Assembly (NCBI GenBank): GCA_030690265.1
Contig: JAUYHA010000077.1
Location: 1 to 64,000 of the forward strand
Direction of reading: 5' to 3'
Length of the DNA: 64,000 bases
Source of the DNA: Dehalococcoidales bacterium
GTDB taxonomy: Bacteria > Chloroflexota > Dehalococcoidia > Dehalococcoidales > UBA2162
A program made the position numbers and the translations under genes. Positions 7,218 to 20,632 of this stretch are shown piece after piece. Position 1 is the stretch's first letter. The number at the start of each line of letters is the position of its first letter. The notes under the pieces were generated by a model, which worked only from the letters and a program-made list of their open reading frames with translations, was not told the origin of the DNA and searched no databases.

Positions 7218-9707
7218 TTAAAAGAGGTCGTCCAGTTCCCGGTTGCCTTCGGGCATCTCACCATGTGCCGTGATGTATTGCTGGAGAAGCTCGCTTTCCT
7301 TTTTGGTGTACATCGGTTCCTCCACGCAGACAAAGTAGCGAGCGTTTTCCTTGAGGGTTATCTGCTCCCCAAGCTCCCGGCGCAGGTTCATAGCTCCTTT
7401 AATATAAATAACCTGCTCCTGCTCATCCAGCAGTTGATAGACCCCCTCTGTCTCCGGCGCCTGGCTGATATTCTCCGGAGTGAATTCCGTCCATAGTTTC
7501 TGGCGGGGTGGCCAGATAGATGCGGCGATATTGAATCTCGAGTCACACCTGAGGCAGCGGCGTCCTTCCTCAGCCGCCTCTTCCTGGCTCAGCGAGAATT
7601 CCACGGCGTCAAAAGAGCTTATCCGCTCCTGGACACCCAGCAGGTTTCGTTTGACCCTGCTTTTATCGCTAAAGCCGACTTCTCTGCCCATGCAGGCGGG
7701 TGATTCTCTTTCCGGGCTCAGTTCTTCTTCAATGTTGCCGTCACCGCCGAGGTATTTATCAATGGCGGAAGCGGCTTTCCTGCCGCCGGCAATAGCTTCA
7801 ATGACCGTGGCAGGCCCGCTGACAACATCACCCCCGGCAAAGACTCCCTGCCTTGAGGTGGCTAATGTCTCGGCGTTTACTTTGATTCTGCCTCCTCTGG
7901 CCGTCTCCAGGCCGTACTTGTCCGGCACTATAGACTCCTGCCCGATGGCTTTTATCATCAGGTCGTATTCTTCGCTGAACTCGCTGCCCTCTACCGGCTC
8001 CGGTCTGGGTCTGCCGCTGGCATCCGGCTTGCCCAGTTGCATCCGTATCGCTTCCAGCTTCAGCTTACCATTGGCAGAGGTAACCCTGGTCGGGTTAGCC
8101 AGGTAGGTTATCTTAATCCCTTCTTCGAGTGCTTCCTCTATCTCTTCTTCGCTGGCTGGCATCTCGGCCCGGGTGCGGCGGTAGATAATGGTTACCTCTT
8201 TAGCTCCGAGGCGGAGGGCAGTTCGTGAGGCATCGATGGCGACATTGCCTCCTCCCACTACCAGCACCTTGTCTCCTATCTTTACTTCCTTACCGAGGTT
8301 GACTTCTCTGAGGAAATCCACCCCGTCTACTATGCCGGGGGTAGTTTCTCCTTCTATCCCCATGCTGGTGCCGCGGTGGGCACCCACACCGGTAAAGACA
8401 GCACTGTAACCCTGCTCAAACAGCTCATCTAATGACTCTACCGGGCTGTTTGTGGCTATCTTTATCCCCAGGTCCTCAATCTCTTTTATCTCTTCTTCCA
8501 GCACTTCAACAGGCAGCCGGTAATCAGGTATCCCTGCCCGCATCATCCCGCCGGCAACCGGCAGGGCTTCAAATACCGTTACCTGGTGCCCTTTCCTGGC
8601 TAGATAGTAAGCTGCGGTCAGCCCGGCTGGCCCGGAGCCGACGATGGCGACTTTCTTGCCCGTAGCCGTAACCGGCGTAAGTCTTCCCTTCCAGCGGTGG
8701 TCATCGTTTTCCGCGGCGAACCGTTTCAGAGCCCTGATGGCAATCGGCCCGTTCAGGTCGGTACGCCGGCATGCCTGCTCACAGGGGTGGGGACAGATAT
8801 AGCCCAGCACTTTGGGGAAGGGTACTTTCTCCCTGATAATGGCGGTAGCTTCAGCGGGTTTGCCCTCGCCAACAAGATAGACATACTGGGCCACATCGAT
8901 ACCGGCCGGGCAGGCTGCCTGACAGGGCACTTCATCAAATTTCCCCTTGTCCATAAGGGCGCCGGTGGGACAGACAGCGACACAGGTAGTGCAGAAGCGG
9001 CAGGCTGATTCCGAAGGATTGGGTCCGACGGAGCCGACGGTAACCCGGCTGTCTTTATTAAAGACGAAATCGATAGCCTCAATCCCTCTAAGTTCCCGGC
9101 AGCCCCGGATACAGCGAGTGCAGCCGATACAGAGGTTATAGTCTCTTTCAAATAATGGCTCGTCTTTTATCTGAGCCAAATCCTCAAAGATAAAGCGGGG
9201 GGTTTCCGGCTTGATGCCGACATACTCGGATATCCGCTGAAGTTCACAGTTGCCGAAGAGGGAACAGCATCTCTCATTCTCAGGGATATTCATTGAGCAG
9301 GGGAAGCGGGCGCAGCCTTCCCTTTGAGCACAGGTAAGGCAGGCGTGAGGGTGTTTTGCCAGGATAAGCGCCAGCTTGTCACGTCTGAATTCCAGAGCCT
9401 CCGGCGTGCTGCTGCGGACTACCATCCCTTCCTCTACCGGAATATTACATGCCTGGTGTAAACCTTCCCTTCCCTCAACTTCTACCACGCAGAGCTGGCA
9501 ACCCTCGTATGCCAGCTCTGGTTGCTTGTTCTCAAAAGGCACTGTACCGCGGTAAATAACTCCGGCGGGCTTTTGAGCCTCTACGGGAGGTAGGTCAGGG
9601 TGCCAGCAGATATGAGGGATATAGATGCCTGCCTGGAGTGCCGCCATTAGAACTGTCGTTCCTTTGGCGGTGGTAACTTCAGTTTCGTCAATAATGATTT
9701 TTGCCAT
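7218..9707 (-). CDS. BzdV-like NAD(P)H:ferredoxin oxidoreductase with C-terminal GIY-YIG-like domain
   Basis: The 829-residue iron-sulfur flavoprotein has, in order, a [2Fe-2S] domain (Cys 34, 70, 73, 87), a NuoG-like His/Cys cluster region near 118-155, two [4Fe-4S] motifs (CIGCTRCIRGC and CRFCTTCVAVCP), and a GltD-like half with FAD site VGSGPAGL and NAD(P) site VGGGNVAID. It probably reduces the adjacent ferredoxin that feeds benzoyl-CoA reductase, as proposed for BzdV in Azoarcus. After a CLRCD motif, the last 90 or so residues read like a GIY-YIG fold (GVYQLLD, VIYIKGAMNLR, ESELLQQYI, then P..N). That appendage is unusual for an oxidoreductase. It is the last gene of the paaX-bcr operon, 26 bases after the ferredoxin. 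Confidence 0.82.
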   Translation of the reverse strand: MAKIIIDETEVTTAKGTTVLMAALQAGIYIPHICWHPDLPPVEAQKPAGVIYRGTVPFENKQPELAYEGCQLCVVEVEGREGLHQACNIPVEEGMVVRSSTPEALEFRRDKLALILAKHPHACLTCAQREGCARFPCSMNIPENERCCSLFGNCELQRISEYVGIKPETPRFIFEDLAQIKDEPLFERDYNLCIGCTRCIRGCRELRGIEAIDFVFNKDSRVTVGSVGPNPSESACRFCTTCVAVCPTGALMDKGKFDEVPCQAACPAGIDVAQYVYLVGEGKPAEATAIIREKVPFPKVLGYICPHPCEQACRRTDLNGPIAIRALKRFAAENDDHRWKGRLTPVTATGKKVAIVGSGPAGLTAAYYLARKGHQVTVFEALPVAGGMMRAGIPDYRLPVEVLEEEIKEIEDLGIKIATNSPVESLDELFEQGYSAVFTGVGAHRGTSMGIEGETTPGIVDGVDFLREVNLGKEVKIGDKVLVVGGGNVAIDASRTALRLGAKEVTIIYRRTRAEMPASEEEIEEALEEGIKITYLANPTRVTSANGKLKLEAIRMQLGKPDASGRPRPEPVEGSEFSEEYDLMIKAIGQESIVPDKYGLETARGGRIKVNAETLATSRQGVFAGGDVVSGPATVIEAIAGGRKAASAIDKYLGGDGNIEEELSPERESPACMGREVGFSDKSRVKRNLLGVQERISSFDAVEFSLSQEEAAEEGRRCLRCDSRFNIAASIWPPRQKLWTEFTPENISQAPETEGVYQLLDEQEQVIYIKGAMNLRRELGEQITLKENARYFVCVEEPMYTKKESELLQQYITAHGEMPEGNRELDDLF

Positions 9708-9733: not shown

Positions 9734-10045
9734 CTAGCGGCTGTATGCAACCTTCCAGCCATCTGAGTGAGAGATAGCCCCCGGTTTACAGGCAGCAATA
9801 CAGGGAGGAAGTTTCTCACCGTAGCCAGGCTGACAGGGAGCACAACTGTACCTGATTTTCTTGCGGTGCTCGGCTTTCACCTTGGCTACCGGCTCATCCC
9901 GGAATGGGTCATACTCGTCCTCGCCTACTTCAAGGGCACTTGCCGGGCAGACCGGCACGCAGTCGCCACAGCCATCGCACTTTTCGGTATCAATCGCCAG
10001 GAACCAGTCTCCGGAACCATCTTTAAATCCGTAATTAGCTAACAT
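9734..10045 (-). CDS. Two-[4Fe-4S] ferredoxin of the benzoyl-CoA reductase system
   Basis: The 103-residue protein has one classical cluster motif, CDGCGDCVPVCP, and a second atypical one, CAPCQPGYG followed by CIAACKP. Low-potential ferredoxins of this sort donate electrons to ATP-dependent benzoyl-CoA reductase; the place between the reductase ATPase subunit and the oxidoreductase matches BzdM in Azoarcus. It begins 15 bases after the preceding stop. Confidence 0.85.
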   Translation of the reverse strand: MLANYGFKDGSGDWFLAIDTEKCDGCGDCVPVCPASALEVGEDEYDPFRDEPVAKVKAEHRKKIRYSCAPCQPGYGEKLPPCIAACKPGAISHSDGWKVAYSR

Positions 10046-10060
10046 TTTATCCTTATTTCA

Positions 10061-10996
10061 TCAGGCTTTTCGGGCGCTTTGTGCTCTGCCTCTTTCCAGC
10101 AGAGCGTGGGCAAACAGGGCGGCACCAACGGCACCGGCTATCTGAGTATCAAAGGGAAGGTTCTGCTCCTTCATCTTGGGGTCGGCCCACACCTGTGCCG
10201 CTGTTTTAACATTTAGCTCCTTCTCCAACCTGCTTACCACGCCGATGTTTTTACCAATGCCTCCGGTGATAGCGAATTGCTCCTCGATACCGAGGCGGTG
10301 GAGCAGTTCCGCCACCCGGTGAGCCATAGCCGCACAGTAAGCAGCCATGATTTCATTTGCCGGCATTCCTTCCTGTATTAAGCCGACAACCTCTGTCTTG
10401 GCAAAGACAACGCAGGTGCTGCTTATCATTGGCGGCTCTTTAGCAATCTGTAAGGACCTTTCGCCAATCTCCCAGACAGGTACGCCGATAAGGTCAGCAA
10501 AGACCTCCATTCCCCGGCCGGTGCCGGCAGCGCACTTGTCGTTCATCATGAACTTCAGCACTTTGCCTCTTTCATCACAATGGATTGCTTTGCAGTCCTG
10601 GCCGCCCATGTCCATCACTGTTCTGACAGTGGGCCCATACATAAAGTTCGCCCCCCTGGCGTGACAGGCAATCTCGGTTATCGTCTGCTGAGCCATTGGG
10701 ACATTAACACGGCCGTAACCGGTTCCTATGCAGTAGTCAATATTGTCCAGTGTTATAGGAGATGGCTCTAGAGCCATAACCATCACCTTCCGGGCACTCT
10801 CCGGGCTATCCGAACCGGTGCGGGTATTGCCATAGGCATAAAGCTCACCATCAATCATAACTACAGCCTGGGAACTAACCGAGCCAATATCGACCCCGGC
10901 GGTGATAAATTTCCCTTTTTGCCAGTCAATGTCCTCATTTACCCATGTGCCTTCCGGCCATCTCCAGAAGTCTACCTTTTTTTCCGTCTCGACCAT
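10061..10996 (-). CDS. bzdQ: Benzoyl-CoA reductase ATPase subunit, BzdQ/BcrA-type
   Basis: A 311-residue BcrA/BadF/BzdQ/HgdC-family ATPase with the acetate/sugar kinase-like nucleotide fold (AGVDIGSVSSQ near 33, VMDMGGQDCK near 128). Cys 155 (NDKCAAGTG) and Cys 195 (SSTCVVF) are placed to ligate the [4Fe-4S] cluster shared by the two ATPase subunits. It hydrolyses ATP to drive low-potential electrons into the catalytic subunits. Its 30-residue N-terminal extension with WRWPEG distinguishes it from the next subunit and fits BzdQ. Subunit naming follows gene order and is an inference. Confidence 0.87.
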   Translation of the reverse strand: MVETEKKVDFWRWPEGTWVNEDIDWQKGKFITAGVDIGSVSSQAVVMIDGELYAYGNTRTGSDSPESARKVMVMALEPSPITLDNIDYCIGTGYGRVNVPMAQQTITEIACHARGANFMYGPTVRTVMDMGGQDCKAIHCDERGKVLKFMMNDKCAAGTGRGMEVFADLIGVPVWEIGERSLQIAKEPPMISSTCVVFAKTEVVGLIQEGMPANEIMAAYCAAMAHRVAELLHRLGIEEQFAITGGIGKNIGVVSRLEKELNVKTAAQVWADPKMKEQNLPFDTQIAGAVGAALFAHALLERGRAQSARKA

Positions 10997-11031: not shown

Positions 11032-11859
11032 TTACTTACCCTCTTGGATATCCTCTTTTTCCACGACCTTGGCTTCCACTTTTTCTTCAGTGACGCCGCT
11101 TTCGGCTGCTGTTGCAGCACCTATAGCCCCGACATAATCGGGGTTATCAGGCACGGTGACTTCCATTTGCAGTTCCTTTCTTAGTGAGTCAAGAAAGCCG
11201 ACATTTCTGGCCATACCGCCAATCATAACGATATCGTTTTCCAGCCCGACGATGCGAGCTACCGAACCGACTCTGCCCGCTATGGCATCGTGAACGGACC
11301 GGGCAATGTCTTCTTTCGATGTTTTCTGGTGAATAAGTCCAACCACTTCGGACTCTCCGAAGACAGAGCACTGGGCATTCATTGGAATGGAACGGGTTGA
11401 GTTCAGTGATATCTTGGCCATCTCCTCCACGTTTATTTCCAGAGCCCGGGCCATAGTGTCTACAAAAGTGCCCGTGCCGGCGGCACATTTCTCGTTAATG
11501 GCAAAGTCCAGTACCTTGCCTTCAGGGCTAACTTTAATTGCCCGGCCCTCCTCGGCGCCGACATCAATAACGGTTCGGGCAGTAGGGATAAGCCGGATTA
11601 TTCCTCGGGCGTCAGCGGCAGCATCGGCAATATATCCGTCGGCAAATGTAACCCTCTTGCCAGAGCTGCCGGTAGCTACTACCCGGATAACATCTTTCCG
11701 CTCCAGCCTGGCTTGCTTCAGGGCATCTTCGTATGCTTCCTCAGCCGCCTTGGCTTTATCCATTCCCGATGTCTCTCCTACCTTGGCCAGTATTTTACCG
11801 TCATTCATAATAACGGCGTGGACATTTTTACCACCAACATCTATTCCAGCGACTATCAT
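11032..11859 (-). CDS. bzdP: Benzoyl-CoA reductase ATPase subunit, BzdP/BcrD-type
   Basis: The second ATPase of the pair, 275 residues, has AGIDVGGKNVH at the start, VIDVGAEEGR near 98, and cluster cysteines 125 (NEKCAAGTG) and 164 (NAQCSVFGES). It is a homologue of its neighbour and would form the heterodimeric activator part of the reductase. The C-terminal 25 residues are a charged Glu/Lys tail of no known role. The gene lies 16 bases after the catalytic subunit gene. Confidence 0.87.
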   Translation of the reverse strand: MIVAGIDVGGKNVHAVIMNDGKILAKVGETSGMDKAKAAEEAYEDALKQARLERKDVIRVVATGSSGKRVTFADGYIADAAADARGIIRLIPTARTVIDVGAEEGRAIKVSPEGKVLDFAINEKCAAGTGTFVDTMARALEINVEEMAKISLNSTRSIPMNAQCSVFGESEVVGLIHQKTSKEDIARSVHDAIAGRVGSVARIVGLENDIVMIGGMARNVGFLDSLRKELQMEVTVPDNPDYVGAIGAATAAESGVTEEKVEAKVVEKEDIQEGK

Positions 11860-11875: not shown

Positions 11876-13195
11876 TTAGTCAGTAAGCTTATCCATCCCT
11901 AACGTTTCGCTAAAGAAGAGGTCAACCATACGGCGGGTTCGAGCCTCGTCGAAGTCCCTCTCATCAGCCATGTTTCCTTCGTAAGTCAGTGTCGGCAGGC
12001 CTATTTTTTGCAGGGCTATCTTGGACTCCATCTGGTGCTGGGCGGTTCCTTCACAACCGCGGTTGAGGTGGATTATCGCCGCATTGCATTGCCACTGCTT
12101 GGCTAACTGGGTTAGCACGGCGTTTTTGTAGTCAGCCCCGTAGAATTCGGCCCAGATTAACTTACCTCTCACCTCTCCCTCTGCCAGCAGTCTTAAAGCC
12201 TGGTCACGGTTTTTAATGGTTATTCCCTGCTCTTCAAGGGTGGGATAAGGCAGCCAGTTTCCCTGCTCATCCTGTTTCCACCACCCGACGAGGCCGTTGG
12301 TATAGATGTTAGTCACGGCGACGGCTCCATACTTCTGGAAGTAGCGATAAATATCAAGAAATGCCCAGGGAGGCTGGCTGTCGGTTAATAAACGGCATCG
12401 CTCGTTAGCTTCAGCAGCAATCTTGTTGGCTACTCTATCCTGGATCTCCGGGTAGAGCAGGTTCTTATAGAAATCGGCATGCGCGTCTTTTGACTTCTCC
12501 AGGGTAGCCAGGACATAGAGGGAGAACATTGTTTTTTCATCCAGTGGTGCCGGGACAGCCATGTTGAGATAGCATACCTTTGCCCAGTAACAACAGGAAT
12601 CGTAGGTATTTTTCACCTTACGAGCCAGTTTTTCGTCATCAATCTTCCTGCCGGTGTGTTTCTCTAAAAAGGCAATCCCATCGTGCAGTTGAGCGGCGAC
12701 ATAGTCAATGTGTCGGTCGGTTATCTTGTCATAAGGCCCGACGCCGACATCGAAACAGAAGTAAGGAGTCTTGCCCCCGCTAAGCTCATCGGCTACCTGC
12801 ATCCACTTACCGTGGCTGCAGCAGATGTGGTTCTGGAAGATAAAATCTGCCTCCGGCCACGGTCCGCCGAAGACAAATTCATTCAGGATAATAGAACCCC
12901 AGTAGTTACGCATGTAGGCGCAGAGGTCGCGGGCACAGCCCCACTTGCCTTCAGCCGCTTCCTGAAAGCGGACCTGTCGTTCAGGGTCAACCGCAACACT
13001 GGCTCCGTAAGGTTCTTCGGTTAGCCCATGAACCTCACCCTCCAGAGCCTGGGGTACCGCATCAAATGACCAGGTGCCGCCTTCCCAGCGGAGGGCACCC
13101 CGGTCATGTGCCTCCATATAGTCCTTGTAATACTCCATCCTGAGCTCTTTTGCTCTGCCCCAACAATCCAAAAGTTTGGTTTGATACTTTGCCAT
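11876..13195 (-). CDS. bzdO: Benzoyl-CoA reductase catalytic subunit, BzdO/BcrB-type
   Basis: This 439-residue protein belongs to the 2-hydroxyglutaryl-CoA dehydratase D-component family (HgdB/BcrB). Cysteines in FQNHICCSHGKW and in NRGCEGTAQH are placed like the cluster ligands of the family. With the next subunit it would form the catalytic module that reduces benzoyl-CoA to cyclohexa-1,5-diene-1-carbonyl-CoA. Its length matches the larger catalytic subunit. Confidence 0.87.
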   Translation of the reverse strand: MAKYQTKLLDCWGRAKELRMEYYKDYMEAHDRGALRWEGGTWSFDAVPQALEGEVHGLTEEPYGASVAVDPERQVRFQEAAEGKWGCARDLCAYMRNYWGSIILNEFVFGGPWPEADFIFQNHICCSHGKWMQVADELSGGKTPYFCFDVGVGPYDKITDRHIDYVAAQLHDGIAFLEKHTGRKIDDEKLARKVKNTYDSCCYWAKVCYLNMAVPAPLDEKTMFSLYVLATLEKSKDAHADFYKNLLYPEIQDRVANKIAAEANERCRLLTDSQPPWAFLDIYRYFQKYGAVAVTNIYTNGLVGWWKQDEQGNWLPYPTLEEQGITIKNRDQALRLLAEGEVRGKLIWAEFYGADYKNAVLTQLAKQWQCNAAIIHLNRGCEGTAQHQMESKIALQKIGLPTLTYEGNMADERDFDEARTRRMVDLFFSETLGMDKLTD

Positions 13196-13238: not shown

Positions 13239-14396
13239 TTAAGCGAATAGTTCTTCCGCCAGGAGCTGTTCAATAAAGGCTTCCACCCTGATTTTGAACG
13301 GTCCCAGAGGCACGGTAACCTCAAATTCCAGGAAATAACAGGGTATGCCATTATTTTCAAGAACCCGTCTCAAGCTTGGAATATCAAGCTCATGGGGGTC
13401 ACAGAATTTTTGCTGGGTAAGGATTGCTCCCTGAACCCGATATTCTTTAGCAAACTCGAGAATCTTGTCAAAGCGGACTCTGCTCCCATCTTCCATCCCC
13501 CAATCCTTACTGGGGCAGGGGGTCCGGTCACAATAGCGGTCGGCAATAGCCTGAAGGCGGTCTTTCTGGGGGGTAATTTCATCCCAAAAATACCTGGTGC
13601 CGGTGCAATGGTCTTCAATGACGAAGGTGGCTCCCAGCTCAGTTTCCACCATGTTTAGAAACTCCCGGTCATCATCCTCACTGCCGACAATCATCAACCG
13701 GACTCCGGTCTCCCGGTCGAGCTTGCGTTCAGGCAGTGTCTCGAGGAGCTGTTTCAGCATTTCGTTTTGCTCCCTTTTGTCCATCAGCTGGCTTGCCCAG
13801 ACTATGGTCATCGCTTCAGTGCCGGTTATCGGGGGATTATCTTCCTTGCGGAATTCATAAACCTGCTTCATCAAGCGCCGGTTGGTGTCGACAATGTCGA
13901 TACCCCTGTCCAGGTCTTCTTCGGAAATGGTTTTACCGGTCCATTCCTCCAGAGCTTTTTTGAATTCAACCAGCTCTCCCCGCAGGAAGGTCTTGGCGTG
14001 GGGACTGCGCACCGCATTGGGCATGACAAAGTAGTAGCTCCACGGAGTCGGAACATTAGCCGTCCAGGCACCATAAGCGACGCGCATATGAAGGCAGGTG
14101 TTGACCTCCATTACACCATCCAGGTAGTCGTACTTTCCCTTCAGAGCCTGGTTCAGGCAATCGCGGCTGAAAGGACACCACATATCGAACATGTGGGGTG
14201 CGGCCTGGGAGGTTGCTTCATGCCCGCCTAAGATGCGCACTGGAAGCATGCCAGCCGCATACATCACCTCCTCCGGATAGTAGGTGCACATGCAGCCAAC
14301 TACTTTGCCTCCGTTTTTCTGTTTCCAGTCTTTGGCATATTCATGCCGTAGCTGCCAGATGTCGTTAAACTGTTTCAAGATTTCCGAAGCTTCCAA
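13239..14396 (-). CDS. bzdN: Benzoyl-CoA reductase catalytic subunit, BzdN/BcrC-type
   Basis: The 385-residue HgdB/BcrC-family protein shows GCMCTYYPEEVMYAAGMLPV near residue 35, the usual opening of this family, and cysteines in MWCPFSRDC and EVNTCLHMR suited to [4Fe-4S] ligation. It pairs with the 439-residue subunit. It begins 19 bases after the PaaX-family regulator, so regulator and reductase are read as one operon. Confidence 0.87.
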   Translation of the reverse strand: MEASEILKQFNDIWQLRHEYAKDWKQKNGGKVVGCMCTYYPEEVMYAAGMLPVRILGGHEATSQAAPHMFDMWCPFSRDCLNQALKGKYDYLDGVMEVNTCLHMRVAYGAWTANVPTPWSYYFVMPNAVRSPHAKTFLRGELVEFKKALEEWTGKTISEEDLDRGIDIVDTNRRLMKQVYEFRKEDNPPITGTEAMTIVWASQLMDKREQNEMLKQLLETLPERKLDRETGVRLMIVGSEDDDREFLNMVETELGATFVIEDHCTGTRYFWDEITPQKDRLQAIADRYCDRTPCPSKDWGMEDGSRVRFDKILEFAKEYRVQGAILTQQKFCDPHELDIPSLRRVLENNGIPCYFLEFEVTVPLGPFKIRVEAFIEQLLAEELFA

Positions 14397-14415: not shown

Positions 14416-15270
14416 TTAATTCCTGTTTGACAATTGTGGCTCATTATATTGGTTAAAGACGAACTCAAAATATTCATTGGCTTTTTCCGCTAAAAGGTCA
14501 TGGTACTGATGAAACAGGTCGGCTGCCTGAGAGCGGAGCCAGTCTTTGGGTAATAGCTCCTCCGGCAAATCAGGGTCAAAGAAGGGCAGCCGCCGGTATT
14601 GATGAATCAACTTGAACCTCTCCACAAAGCACCAGCTTGCCTCTATCGGCTCGCCATCCTGGAACCGTCCCTGGTAGTCTTCCAGTTTCGAGGAATATTC
14701 ATTAAGAAAGCTGGCATATTTTTCGTGGATAAGGTGTAAATCCCAGCAGCGGGATATTATGCTTTGGGGATTAGTGAAATCCCGAAGCTTAGCCTTAAAC
14801 ATTTGGACATATTCTTTGATTTGAAGCCTGGCTATTATCTCGGCTATTTCCCTGCTTGAATCGTGGGGTGAAATCCAGGTAGCGGTGCTTAAAGGTCCGT
14901 ATCCCGCCCAGTTTAGTTCCTGACGCAGTTTGTCCCTTGCCTCCCTTTTTTCTTCAGGGATAAAGTAGACTACGACACTCCAGGTTCCATCCCAGCCGCT
15001 CGTTTTTCGCTCGAAAATGCGCTGGGCTCCTTTATCCAGCAGGTCAAAGCCAGCTTCTGTTAGCGAATAGTAGCTTCGTAACCCGTTATGCCTTACCTTA
15101 AATAAACCGGCCCGACTCATCCTTGACACCGCTGACCTTATCGATTGTTCCGAAAGGCTAAAATTTGCCAATAGCTCGATTAAACCGCCAATCCCGATTT
15201 CTCCACCTCTGTGGCGAACATAATCCCCATAGAGGGTAAGTATTGTAGCCCTAGGACGAAAAATTAGCAT
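14416..15270 (-). CDS. PaaX-family transcriptional regulator
   Basis: This 284-residue protein has the PaaX layout: an N-terminal winged helix (about 10-95, with SEQSIRSAVSRMSRAG as recognition helix), the central region with GWDGTWSVVVYFIPEEKR, and the PaaX C-terminal domain. PaaX itself represses phenylacetate degradation and is released by an aryl-CoA ligand; here the likely ligand is benzoyl-CoA or a ring-reduced CoA ester. It is the first gene of the reductase operon, with a promoter and perfect palindrome directly upstream, so autoregulation is likely. Other bzd clusters use a different regulator, BzdR. Confidence 0.87.
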   Translation of the reverse strand: MLIFRPRATILTLYGDYVRHRGGEIGIGGLIELLANFSLSEQSIRSAVSRMSRAGLFKVRHNGLRSYYSLTEAGFDLLDKGAQRIFERKTSGWDGTWSVVVYFIPEEKREARDKLRQELNWAGYGPLSTATWISPHDSSREIAEIIARLQIKEYVQMFKAKLRDFTNPQSIISRCWDLHLIHEKYASFLNEYSSKLEDYQGRFQDGEPIEASWCFVERFKLIHQYRRLPFFDPDLPEELLPKDWLRSQAADLFHQYHDLLAEKANEYFEFVFNQYNEPQLSNRN

Positions 15271-15411: not shown

Positions 15412-17478
15412 TCAAATCTTCTTTATCCGGCATAGTAGTGTTTTAAGCTCGGCATAGCCGGTTACCGGGTCCCGGGGTTCGAGGCTGGTCAGCAGGTTAA
15501 CATTGGCTTCAGCCCAGCCGTGGGGGATGCTGATAATGCCGGGGGCTAAATCTTCGGTGGTCTTTACCTTAATGGCTATCTGCCCTTTGTTTGTTTCCAC
15601 CCTCATCATATCGCCATCAGCCAGGCCATACTGTGCGGCGGTATCAGGGTGAATCTCAGCCACCGGCTCAACGGCTGCTCTCTTTAAGGTTGAAATATTC
15701 CTGAACTGGGTATGGGTGTATTGCGGTATTCGGGCGCCGGTGGTCAGGATTAGAGGGTAATCCTTCGCCAGTTCCGGAGCACTGACCGGGCTCTGGCTGG
15801 GCTCGACATAAACAGGCAGCGGGTCATAGCCGTTCTCTTTAAGCGTTTCAGAGTAAATCTCTATCTTGCCGGAAGGGGTCCGGTAGTTGTTGGTTTGATA
15901 CGTGCGATACTTCTTCTCGGCATAGAAAGCTCCCTCAGGATGGTCTCTCTCCAGTTGCTCTCTGGTTAAACCGCTTGGTTCTAAAAAGAAGTCAATAACC
16001 TCCTCCTCGGTTTGCCAGGGGAAGAACTCCCCGTAGCTCATCCTCCGTCCTATTTCAGTCCAGATTTTCCAGTCAGCCCAGCTTTCCCCGATAGGCTCGA
16101 TTATCTTTTTACGGAGTAAAAGATAGGGTATGCCTGCGGTTACCCCGTAAACATAGCCTACCCCGCTCTTCTCCGGGAAGGAGCAAGCCGGAAGCACAAT
16201 GTCGGCCAGTTCGGCAGTTTCGGTCAGAAACAGGTCAATCACTACCATGAAATCCAGCTTCTCCAGTGCCTGCTTGATTCGGGACGAATCGGGCAGGGTA
16301 AGGACGGGGTTGCCGCCGTTGACAATCAAGGCGGTAATGGGATATGGCTTTCTTTCTAGAACGGCATCGGCAAAAAGCATTTCCTGGCTGAAGGGGGCTT
16401 TTCTGCCCCAGAAACCGTGGAAAAGAGGGTACTCTTTAGCTCCAATCGCCTCACCCGTCTCGGTAACTCGAAGTTCCCGGGCGCCGAGACGGAGGTAGGG
16501 CATGCCTACCCATCCCCCGGGTATATCGATATTACCGGTTACCGTCTGCAAAAGCGAAAGGGCACGGTTATTCTGGAAACCGTTGATATGCTGGTCAAGG
16601 GCGGCGGTGCCGGGCACTATGGAAGCGGGCTTGACGGTGGCGAAAAGGCGGGCAATTCGTCTGATGTCTTCAGCCGGCACCCAGGTTATCTCGGCCACTT
16701 TCTCCGGGGAATAACTTTTTACATGTTCTGCCAGCTGGTTAAATCCCAGGGTATATTTCTCCACGAAGTCTTTATCGTAGAGTCCTTCGGCGATGATGAC
16801 ATTCAGCATTGCCAGCATCAGGGCACAGTCAGTCCCCGGTCTTATCCGGATGTAAATTCCCTTTTCCGCCATCGGGATACGTCTGGGGTCAATAACAATT
16901 AACTGCTCCAGAGTACCGCTATCCAGGGCTTTATAAATCTTGTTGGCCATGGTCATTCTTGTCCGGTCCATGTTCTGTCCCCAGACGATAACGCATCTGG
17001 CGTTCCAGGGCTCTTCAATGAGGTAACTGCCGAAGGTCATCTGGCGAGCCATAATCCGGGAGCGAAAGCAGTTCCCTTCCACGGAGAGTAGATTGGGGGT
17101 GCCGTAAGCGCCGCAGAATATTTGGGCAAAGGTAGCCAGCTCAATATTCTCTGTCCCAATTGAGCCGTTATAGACGGCGAGAGCCTCCGCCCCGTGTTTT
17201 TCTTTGATTGCCTGTAATTTTTCAGCGATGGTATTCAGAGCCTCGTTCCAGGAGATTCTCTGCCAGCCTCCGCCGGCTTTTTTCATTGGATATTTCAGGC
17301 GGTCCGGCGAATAGACATACTCCGGCAGTGCCTCACCCCTGGGGCAGATTACCCCTTCGCTTACCGGGTGTTCGGGCATACCCTCTACCCTGACCAGCCT
17401 GCCGTCATCAACATAGGCATTGATGCCACAGCTATTGATGCACATGATGCAGTCGGACTTGATTACTTTTAGCGCCAC
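15412..17478 (-). CDS. Molybdopterin (bis-PGD) oxidoreductase, DMSO-reductase superfamily
   Basis: The 688-residue catalytic subunit has an N-terminal [4Fe-4S] motif (Cys 10, 13, 17, 45), then the molybdopterin oxidoreductase domain with GNCFRSR near 135-141, where Cys 137 is a candidate Mo or W ligand, and a C-terminal dinucleotide-binding domain (YPLILTTGAR). No twin-arginine signal is seen, so it should be cytoplasmic. No electron-transfer or membrane subunit lies next to it. It starts 13 bases after the Dch gene. The substrate is unknown: a hydratase, transhydroxylase or ring-hydroxylation step on an aromatic or alicyclic acid would fit the context but is inference. Confidence 0.85.
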   Translation of the reverse strand: MALKVIKSDCIMCINSCGINAYVDDGRLVRVEGMPEHPVSEGVICPRGEALPEYVYSPDRLKYPMKKAGGGWQRISWNEALNTIAEKLQAIKEKHGAEALAVYNGSIGTENIELATFAQIFCGAYGTPNLLSVEGNCFRSRIMARQMTFGSYLIEEPWNARCVIVWGQNMDRTRMTMANKIYKALDSGTLEQLIVIDPRRIPMAEKGIYIRIRPGTDCALMLAMLNVIIAEGLYDKDFVEKYTLGFNQLAEHVKSYSPEKVAEITWVPAEDIRRIARLFATVKPASIVPGTAALDQHINGFQNNRALSLLQTVTGNIDIPGGWVGMPYLRLGARELRVTETGEAIGAKEYPLFHGFWGRKAPFSQEMLFADAVLERKPYPITALIVNGGNPVLTLPDSSRIKQALEKLDFMVVIDLFLTETAELADIVLPACSFPEKSGVGYVYGVTAGIPYLLLRKKIIEPIGESWADWKIWTEIGRRMSYGEFFPWQTEEEVIDFFLEPSGLTREQLERDHPEGAFYAEKKYRTYQTNNYRTPSGKIEIYSETLKENGYDPLPVYVEPSQSPVSAPELAKDYPLILTTGARIPQYTHTQFRNISTLKRAAVEPVAEIHPDTAAQYGLADGDMMRVETNKGQIAIKVKTTEDLAPGIISIPHGWAEANVNLLTSLEPRDPVTGYAELKTLLCRIKKI

Positions 17479-18391: not shown

Positions 18392-19534
18392 TTACTGCTG
18401 TTTGGGTTTGGGCATGACGGCTTCCATCAGCTCATCATCATACGGATGACCCTGGGCGAGAAGCTGGCGCAGCTTGATGAAGTCTATCTCCCGCTGGCCG
18501 GTCAGTCCGGCGGTGTTGAAGGCATTGAAGCCAAGCCAGGCTTCGGTATTCATATTGGCAGCCAGCCAGTACATCGAGTGTACCTTGGTCTCGTCCCAGA
18601 AGAACTTTTTCTTCATTCTTATCGACTCAACGGTCATCATCTCACAGAGAGGGAAGAGGTTAGCCATTGTCCAGACTATTTTATCAATGTAAGCATCCAG
18701 CAGCGACCAGTCGGTCTGGAGTCCCTTTAGAGTATCCGTAGCCTGTTTAAGCTCGTCCCCTTTTTTCATCTCGCCGTAAACTATCTCGCCGTTCTCCACA
18801 TATTTATCGGTAATCACCCTGGGGTCTCTTACCCACTCTCCCTTGTCGTTTTTCTTAATCGGGAGAGCCTTGGTGATGGAGTTCAGCCTTTCCATCTTGT
18901 AAGCGCTCCACAGTTCGTTAGAGAAGGCGTTCCACATTGCCAGCTCCGTGGTGGGCAGCTGCCAGGGCAGAAAATCGGTGGAACCGCCGGTCGGTGTGGA
19001 GCCGTGTCTTGTTCCCGCCTGGCCGAACTGAGCCGTATCAGCCGCTACGGTAAGGTCGCAGGCCTGGCCAATCTCCTGGCCGCCGGCGACGCGCATACCG
19101 TTACACCGCTGGATTACCGGCACCCGGCTCTTCAGGATGGCGTCTACCATGCCAACGAACAGGTCTATGTAGTCCGCATACTCCTTGGGTCTTCTGGTGT
19201 AATACTCGGCATACTCCTTGGTGTTGCCGCCGGTGCAGAATGCCCGGTCGCCGGTGCCGGTGAAGATAGTGGCGACTACGCTTCTATCCATCGAAGCCTT
19301 GTGCATACCAGCGATAACCCCCTTTACCATTTCTGTGGTGTAAGAACCGTATTGGCCGGGGTTATTGAGGGTAATCCAGGTAGTATAGAGACCCTCAACC
19401 GTCTCCCCGGTATTAGGGTTAACCAGCAGCTTTTTCTCGAACATGGTGCACGGTGCTTCGGTGCCAAAGTGCTCGTCACCGAAAATCTGGTGATTTTTCA
19501 GGACATCATCTCTGGGTATCCAATCTAAAGACAT
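18392..19534 (-). CDS. oah: 6-oxocyclohex-1-ene-1-carbonyl-CoA hydrolase (Oah)
   Basis: This 380-residue protein is a large crotonase-superfamily member with the length and N-terminal extension of Oah (opening WIPRDDVLKNHQIFGDEHFG), the oxyanion motif TGDRAFCTGGNTKEY and CNGMRVAGGQEIG. Oah adds water and cleaves the ring of 6-oxocyclohex-1-ene-1-carbonyl-CoA to give 3-hydroxypimelyl-CoA. It lies 27 bases after had and is followed by a strong terminator. Confidence 0.92.
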   Translation of the reverse strand: MSLDWIPRDDVLKNHQIFGDEHFGTEAPCTMFEKKLLVNPNTGETVEGLYTTWITLNNPGQYGSYTTEMVKGVIAGMHKASMDRSVVATIFTGTGDRAFCTGGNTKEYAEYYTRRPKEYADYIDLFVGMVDAILKSRVPVIQRCNGMRVAGGQEIGQACDLTVAADTAQFGQAGTRHGSTPTGGSTDFLPWQLPTTELAMWNAFSNELWSAYKMERLNSITKALPIKKNDKGEWVRDPRVITDKYVENGEIVYGEMKKGDELKQATDTLKGLQTDWSLLDAYIDKIVWTMANLFPLCEMMTVESIRMKKKFFWDETKVHSMYWLAANMNTEAWLGFNAFNTAGLTGQREIDFIKLRQLLAQGHPYDDELMEAVMPKPKQQ

Positions 19535-19561: not shown

Positions 19562-20632
19562 TTAAAAATCAGGGATTAGCACTATTCTCTGCGTCAGCCC
19601 GCCCTTATGAGCTTCTTCAAATGCTTCCTGTATCGTGCTCATCGGTCTTGTCTCAATAAAAGGCTCTATCTGTATCTTACCTTCCAACACCATGTTGAGA
19701 ACCTGGGGGTAATACTGGGGTAAACAGCCCCAGCTGCCCATAATATCAGCATCAAAAGCCATCAGTCTTGATAGCTGATATTCCGTCTTTTGCATACCGA
19801 AACCACCTATAATCAGTTTGCCGACAAAGGAGAGCAGCTCTAAAGCAATCTCCTGTCCGGCAGCCACGCCAGTCCACTCAAAAATTTTCCATCCGTAATT
19901 GGGCAGCCCTTTTTCTTTGCAGTAGTTCCGGAACTCGTCTCTGATTGCCCTGACGTCTCCGCCGCTTTGAATAGTATGTGTGGCGCCAAAGTCCAGGGCT
20001 CTCTTCAGCTTCTCCGGGTTACGGGCAATGCCGATTACCTCTTTTGCCCCCAGGGCAGAGCATATCTGGGTAGCGTAGATACCAAGCCCGCCGGTAACCC
20101 CGATGACAATGGTCAAGTCTCCCGGCTTTACCCCGGCTTTCATTGCTGCCTGGTAGGGCGAGGTTACCGCATCGGCAACGACGGCGAAATGGGAAAGAGG
20201 TATCCCTTGCTTGTCCTCTGGAATCTGGCACAAATCATGGCTGGGAACGACGATATGACTGGCGAAGCCGCCGAAAATGCCCGTGCTGTTCCCCGGCATT
20301 TTCTGAGCCAGGCAGCGGTTGCCTCTACCTTCGGCACAAATAGGGCAGTTATTGCAGGGCATTACCGCCGGAATAACTACATCTTTGCCCACCAAGGCGC
20401 TGTCCCCTGCTATTACCGTGCCGCTGATTTCATGTCCCAGGGTTAAAGGTGGTTTGTTCACTGTGGGTACGCCATCATAAAAGAAGCCCACATCAGTGTG
20501 GCATACCCCGCAGCCGGCGATTTCTACCAGTACTTCCCCCTCCTTCAGTTCCGGGATATCAATGCTGGCTCTAGCCAGTTTTCCCGGCTCTACCATCTGC
20601 CAGGTTTCAATCTTTTTCGGTATCTTTGCCAT
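19562..20632 (-). CDS. had: 6-hydroxycyclohex-1-ene-1-carbonyl-CoA dehydrogenase (Had)
   Basis: A 356-residue zinc-dependent alcohol dehydrogenase. The catalytic zinc site is suggested by Cys 44 (GCGVCHTD) and His 67 (LGHEISG), and the structural zinc by cysteines 93, 96, 99 and 107. GVTGGLGIYATQ is the NAD-binding motif. Next to oah it fits Had, which oxidises the 6-hydroxy intermediate with NAD+. TAAGGAGG precedes the ATG. It is the first gene of the had-oah transcript. Confidence 0.9.
   Translation of the reverse strand: MAKIPKKIETWQMVEPGKLARASIDIPELKEGEVLVEIAGCGVCHTDVGFFYDGVPTVNKPPLTLGHEISGTVIAGDSALVGKDVVIPAVMPCNNCPICAEGRGNRCLAQKMPGNSTGIFGGFASHIVVPSHDLCQIPEDKQGIPLSHFAVVADAVTSPYQAAMKAGVKPGDLTIVIGVTGGLGIYATQICSALGAKEVIGIARNPEKLKRALDFGATHTIQSGGDVRAIRDEFRNYCKEKGLPNYGWKIFEWTGVAAGQEIALELLSFVGKLIIGGFGMQKTEYQLSRLMAFDADIMGSWGCLPQYYPQVLNMVLEGKIQIEPFIETRPMSTIQEAFEEAHKGGLTQRIVLIPDF

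Follow-up and report, generated by a model that had tools for sequence, protein, structure and literature searches.

Genes at the bzd locus

The window, which is the whole analyzed stretch of 64,000 nucleotides from a Dehalococcoidales bacterium, carries a gene for a BzdV-like oxidoreductase on the minus strand. Located upstream of it in the direction of transcription are genes for a ferredoxin, BzdQ, an activase at the position of BzdP, BzdO, and BzdN and, farther away, for Oah and Had. The features of the locus are as follows.

7218..9707, minus strand: bzdV-like oxidoreductase gene, 829 amino acids (aa), from the open reading frame (ORF) and its Pfam domains
9734..10045, minus strand: ferredoxin-like gene at the BzdM position, the homologues of which keep their place upstream of bzdV
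10061..10996, minus strand: BzdQ (TIGR03192, over the cutoff)
11032..11859, minus strand: second activase-type subunit of benzoyl-CoA reductase (BCR), at the BzdP position
11876..13195, minus strand: BzdO (TIGR03191, over the cutoff)
13239..14396, minus strand: BzdN (TIGR03190, over the cutoff)
18392..19534, minus strand: 6-oxocyclohex-1-ene-1-carbonyl-CoA hydratase (TIGR03200, over the cutoff)
19562..20632, minus strand: further gene listed for the bzd locus

Because BzdN, BzdO, BzdQ, Oah, and Had all exceeded their NCBIfam cutoffs in the window, where the ferredoxin gene is also present, the locus is assigned, as judged from sequence, to a class I benzoyl-CoA pathway of the bzd type. The position of the BzdV-like gene beside bzdNOPQ and ferredoxin genes is that of BzdV in this pathway, which has been described as a putative NADPH:ferredoxin oxidoreductase (PMC5658619). 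A bzdV gene together with the bzdNOPQ set was also inferred for deep-sea Chloroflexi (PMC5736913). Two other genes are interspersed in the cluster. A PaaX-like regulator (238 bits, cutoff 264.55) at 14416-15270, between bzdN and the remaining cluster, is a possible regulator of the benzoate genes, and a molybdoenzyme similar to the alpha subunit of formate dehydrogenase is located at 15412-17478.

Architecture of the BzdV-like protein and its tail

The 829-aa protein consists of an N-terminal Fer2_4 2Fe-2S domain, a NuoG-type 4Fe-4S domain, a GltD-type FAD/NAD(P) domain, and a C-terminal GIY-YIG-like tail, and its domains fit a predicted NAD(P)H:ferredoxin oxidoreductase. A first-pass annotation had claimed a fusion of a GIY-YIG-like domain to a BzdV-like oxidoreductase at 7221-7487, and this fusion was borne out by the ORF and its domains. 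The interval corresponds to residues 741-829, and every peptide quoted for it is present: GVYQLLD (755-761), YIKG (768-771), NLRREL (774-779), ESELLQQYI (804-812), and MPEGN (818-822). The spacing of “ten residues” is correct from GVY to YIKG but not from GVYQLLD to YIKG, which are six residues apart. The features of the tail are as follows.

7221..7493, minus strand: GIY-YIG-derived tail domain (DUF7508), residues 739-829 (Pfam, profile, and fold comparisons)
7437..7445, minus strand: first motif GVY, residues 755-757 (alignment of 33 tails)
7395..7406, minus strand: second motif YIKG, residues 768-771; YIG is canonical, and Lys770 is at the Gly position
7374..7376, minus strand: Glu778, ten residues after Tyr768, where the catalytic Arg would stand (spacing in a UvrC chain and 33 tails)
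7278..7283, minus strand: Gln809-Gln810, where the metal-binding Glu of the active site would be (alignment with 2lwf and 33 tails)
7242..7265, minus strand: HGEMPEGN, residues 815-822, similar to GKVPPGN of GRXS16, with Asn822 at the GIY-YIG Asn position
7221..7232, minus strand: acidic C-terminal peptide DDLF

The tail is a real extra domain of the BzdV-like gene, comprising residues from about 739 to 829, and it is old and under purifying selection. Comparison with the tail of its nearest relative (L125) yielded a dN of 0.17 and a dS of 1.39, and two other tails (L106 and L109) differed with a dN of 0.019 and a dS of 0.44. A C terminus of the form (D/E)(D/E)LF/Y or ELF recurs among other genomes.

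A frameshift or assembly artifact at the gene end was considered and ruled out by the recurrence of the fusion and of the C terminus across many genomes and by the dN and dS values of the tail.

Relationship of the tail to the GIY-YIG fold

In Pfam, the whole protein matched DUF7508 (PF24348), a family of unknown function, with 31.9 bits and the tail alone with 36.4 bits, at a cutoff of 26, and all 21 of the 21 scanned tails matched this family. The DUF7508 model reached an E value of ≤0.001 in 70 of 201 genomes of the phylum, mostly in frames of about 600 to 700 aa, and those inspected were UvrC. The GIY-YIG family itself (PF01541) was matched by four of eight members of alignment A3, the best of which, the first row, had an E value of 2e-4 and 22.0 bits versus a cutoff of 22.6. 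When the A3 profile was compared with 177635 PDB sequences, the plant glutaredoxin GRXS16 (2lwf) was at the top (E = 0.006, aligned over profile positions 27-108), followed by UvrC (1yd6, E = 0.062). A phmmer search with a single tail against the PDB gave chance-level matches only, a plasmid search using the tail gave zero matches, and the GRXS16 fragment compared with Pfam found GIY-YIG only, below the cutoff, without reaching DUF7508.

Pairwise hhalign comparisons of the tails with 33 UvrC N-domains gave probabilities of 94 to 96% and scores of 44 to 51, compared with at most 3% and a score of 18 in a control of 40 column shuffles per query; these are single pairwise comparisons, and the alignment spans only the first half of the domain. 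It includes the P-x-x-x-G-V-Y ... V-I-Y-I region and the first helix. A global hhalign comparison with UvrC yielded no reliable alignment for the second half of the domain, which aligns poorly, and UvrC, unlike the tail, retains YIG-K, the catalytic Arg and Glu, and a positive charge.

The structure prediction and comparison with UvrC that the first-pass annotation had called for placed GIY-YIG chains at the top. The two AlphaFold models of tails were of low to middling confidence (pLDDT of 62.4 and 66.5), and no Foldseek match attained an E value of ≤0.001. With model 1, the top Foldseek match was 2lwf and UvrC took third place; with model 2, ranks 1 to 6 were all GIY-YIG chains (probability 0.25 to 0.94, best E value 0.079), and GRXS16 occupied rank 1 or 2 in both searches. 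VIA-align gave a Z score of ≥2 for 4 of 35 chains with model 1, all of them GIY-YIG (2lwf, Z = 3.8), and for 122 of 769 with model 2, where pieces of the RimK ATP-grasp fold tied with 2lwf (Z = 6.2). Since the DUF7508 match is over the cutoff and the profile, PDB sequence, and fold comparisons agree, the tail is almost certainly homologous to the GIY-YIG superfamily, as had been proposed. Its nearest relative appears to be the GIY-YIG domain of GRXS16, followed by UvrC.

Loss of the catalytic positions

The Gly of the first motif was present in 33 of 33 tails and the Tyr in 7; the protein of the window has GVY and thus agrees with G-I/V-Y. The second motif deviates from Y-I-G. It is YIKG here, with the Gly one residue late, which is the G/K swap that had been noticed earlier, and among the 33 tails, 7 have Gly at position 770 and 7 have the Tyr of YIG. 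In the UvrC chain of T. maritima, with Y19, Y29, and R39, the catalytic Arg follows ten residues after the second Tyr. The corresponding column (778) contains Glu in this tail and Arg in none of the 33. The column of the catalytic Glu (809) contains Gln in 29 tails, Ser in 4, and Glu in none, in a register that depends on the alignment with 2lwf, where a Glu of GRXS16 faces Gln809, and on the distance from the Asn rather than on a UvrC profile aligned over its full length. The C-terminal Asn is Asn822 in this protein and an Asn in 17 of 33 tails. From the “conserved Arg, Glu and Asn” of the first-pass annotation, consequently, Asn822 stands, but the Arg and the Glu do not: Arg776 is at +8, position +10 is Glu778, and the Glu position is Gln809.

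Averaged over the tails, the C-terminal 91 residues carry a net charge of −10.8 (from −15 to −4), compared with +4.5 (1 to 8) for the N-terminal 94 residues in 33 UvrC domains. Because the domain is strongly acidic, reuse of the fold for contact with RNA or DNA, as the first-pass annotation had suggested, is disfavored. Six “C1-type” relatives have kept YIG or FIG and Asn822 but possess a Gly in the Arg column and a Gln in the Glu column. The alignment columns and the charge indicate that the tail is very probably a noncatalytic derivative of GIY-YIG.

An active nuclease was disfavored as a candidate: the columns of the catalytic Arg and Glu are unoccupied in 33 tails, and the charge is about −11.

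Comparison with GRXS16

GRXS16 resembles the BzdV-like protein in that a GIY-YIG-type domain is joined to an Fe-S/redox protein and in that the alignment includes the G-x-x-P-x-G-N ending. It differs in that its domain is N-terminal to a CGFS glutaredoxin, in the Glu at the place of Gln809, and in its reported endonuclease activity; no CGFS glutaredoxin domain was found in the 829-aa protein among the listed 25 of its 37 Pfam families. For GRXS16, nuclease activity, redox cross-talk, and mutual inhibition of its domains were reported (PMC5890173). Because GRXS16 is a published fusion of GIY-YIG with a redox protein (PMC5890173), the fusion in bzdV is less unexpected. In the literature collection that was searched, no paper joined GIY-YIG with benzoyl-CoA or named DUF7508, none combined GIY-YIG with “NADPH-dependent glutamate synthase,” and one (PMC7641849) was listed for GIY-YIG together with FAD-dependent and ferredoxin.

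The tail may be nevertheless a working or conditional nuclease or a nucleic acid-binding module that couples redox state to DNA or RNA, as claimed for GRXS16, its closest solved relative, which reportedly has endonuclease activity and shows redox cross-talk. Moreover, six relatives keep GVY or GVF, YIG or FIG, a nearby Arg, and the Asn. The missing Arg alone is no proof of inactivity, because GRXS16 too is without an Arg at +10 in the 2lwf alignment and reportedly cuts DNA (PMC5890173). Both catalytic positions, however, are empty in 33 of 33 tails, only 7 of 33 retain the Gly of YIG, the charge is −11, and the regulatory Cys of GRXS16 has no evident conserved counterpart, position 794, the only Cys of the window's tail, being a Cys in 3 of 26 tails. 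A nuclease or nucleic acid binder is accordingly regarded as improbable, and the noncatalytic derivative is preferred.

Occurrence of the tail and association with benzoyl-CoA reductase

A survey for the same tail, which the first-pass annotation had proposed for BzdV homologues, found it in 24 of 132 genomes of the Zixibacteria group (to which the Candidatus Zixiibacteriota MAG G401 belongs; P0002 search) and in 12 of 197 genomes of the window's class (alignment-based search). Twenty regions were fetched, 19 with a fused gene and 1 (L092) with a stand-alone domain. BCR and/or ferredoxin homologues were located directly upstream in 17 of the 19 fused regions; the exceptions were L075, with BzdN about 50 kb away, and L085, with the gene near the contig end.

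These fused regions had been found via the tail, and the converse was therefore tested from BzdN, which was present in 22 of 132 Zixibacteria-group genomes and in 18 of 197 genomes of the class, although it exceeded the cutoff in only 6 of these 197. In the Zixibacteria group (n = 132), 20 genomes contained both the tail and BzdN, 4 the tail only, and 2 BzdN only (Fisher P = 1e-17, relatedness of the genomes ignored). In the window's class (n = 197), the respective numbers were 11, 1, and 7 (Fisher P = 1e-12, relatedness again ignored). Both Zixibacteria-group genomes with BzdN only are interrupted, G445 breaking off after the ferredoxin and G424 having a gap inside bzdV. The lack of a detected tail in 7 of 18 BzdN-positive genomes of the class was counted against a docking role. 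Five of them were fetched (G541, G566, G560, G564, and G622; G580 and G590 were left out). Four displayed BCR and ferredoxin without an adjoining BzdV and with at most weak matches to distant flavoproteins, and the contig of G560 ends inside the BCR cluster. A tailless BzdV directly beside BCR was not seen in this sample.

Tailless relatives and phylogeny

Tailless homologues are complete genes that stop near residue 735, and the window's own genome also holds one of them (L122). In the tree of the protein body with 35 rows, 11 of the 12 tailless rows were in one clade (support 99/99), and the tail label was explained by few changes; a single origin of the tail with later loss is possible. The tree left out broken or partial copies (L085, L093, L099, L111, and L119) and the tail-bearing Zixibacteria-group genomes G400, G423, G442, G446, G465, and G498, the regions of which were not fetched. 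Alignment A2 contains 21 rows versus 26 tails, without L058, L063, L066, L068, and L072 and with L002 representing L052.

Homologues of the molybdoenzyme in the bzd cluster adjoin a tailless BzdV in L118, L119, and L122 and may supply electrons to such flavoproteins. A contig filed as viral (L125, 1-5641, contig end; IMGVR_UViG_3300035179_000023) ends in a tailed bzdV gene, the tail of which is 69% identical to that of the window (first A2 row). Unrelated, possibly phage ORFs right behind this bzdV suggest either a binning error or a provirus located next to a bzd operon.

Fused and stand-alone copies in other settings

Exclusive occurrence of the tail in BCR operons was rejected, with six fused copies lying elsewhere.

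The surroundings of five of these six relatives (L106 to L110, in G670, G593, G582, G605, and G660) were listed: all five are next to a gene for a Clp ATPase, and four also follow an fhs gene, with neighbor identities tested with NCBIfam for L106 only and read from the N termini for the others. The tails remote from BCR retain the canonical YIG. All six genomes contain a BzdN-like gene elsewhere, below the cutoff; G670 possesses a BCR-like cluster and G605 part of one. These relatives were likewise counted against a docking role in the benzoyl-CoA pathway.

Stand-alone copies of the domain exist in G570 (113 aa, near a Clp-like gene) and G602 (97 aa), with 42.4 bits for DUF7508; with a dN of 0.09 and a saturated dS, they are under purifying selection. 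The stand-alone DUF7508 genes at L141 10054-10392 and L140 3996-4286 come from two related genomes with at least nine BzdN-like matches each, and the short ORF preceding them had no Pfam match at an E value of ≤0.001. An acyl-CoA dehydrogenase gene immediately follows another stand-alone copy in G548 and in G356; these two DUF7508 members, in contrast to the tail, are unfused. The stand-alone DUF7508-like form with YVGYAGG or YIGMAGG directly before acyl-CoA dehydrogenase (L142 9131-9580; L035 1501-1776/L092) comes from two genomes of different families. The existence of stand-alone copies argues that the domain acts on something beyond its own BzdV body.

This bears on the possibility that the tail only caps a BzdV subfamily as a passive structural element, used for intramolecular packing or dimerization and without a specific partner. 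Clustering of the tail label on the body tree, as for an inherited part of a subfamily, and the completeness of the tailless genes agree with such a cap. The selected stand-alone copies in two genomes and others beside acyl-CoA dehydrogenase suggest a wider role instead, and the conserved acidic C-terminal peptide suggests one besides packing on BzdV; a mere cap is thus rather unlikely. The recurrence of DUF7508 members beside enzymes handling acyl-CoA (BCR and acyl-CoA dehydrogenase) would also agree with a regulatory sensor for a ligand, for example, acyl-CoA or a nucleotide, that gates electron flow. No ligand-binding motif was recognized, however, and tails linked to BCR vary at the old active-site positions, which leaves little probability for a sensor.

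Proposed function

On balance, the best explanation, and one slightly more likely than not, is a nuclease-dead DUF7508 GIY-YIG tail through which a BzdV feeding class I BCR would dock to or assemble with other proteins. Taken separately, the docking or assembly role in the benzoyl-CoA pathway is evenly poised. The BzdV-like protein, if expressed and folded as predicted and not a nuclease in the cell, would be an NAD(P)H:ferredoxin-type enzyme and may pass low-potential electrons to the neighboring ferredoxin, presumably in this direction. The ferredoxin would deliver them to the class I (ATP-dependent) BCR, and the tail may help BzdV to dock or assemble with the ferredoxin or the reductase. 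From the earlier proposal of a reuse of the fold “to couple electron supply to regulation,” the structural reuse and an association with electron supply agree with these results; a coupling to regulation is only conjectural.

A broader possibility is offered only tentatively: DUF7508 may be a redox-associated GIY-YIG branch, akin to the domain of GRXS16, that has converted its nuclease fold to docking in Fe-S electron delivery; in bacteria it would link BzdV and ferredoxin to ATP-driven reductases of the benzoyl-CoA type and, as a stand-alone protein, would act with other acyl-CoA flavoenzymes.

To our knowledge, the electron route to class I BCR in strict anaerobes is still partly unsettled, and a domain that is conserved, can be removed, and tracks with BCR provides a direct handle on its electron supply. 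If the docking role is true, DUF7508 would gain a function, and there would be a second example of GIY-YIG fused to redox machinery, here without the catalytic residues.
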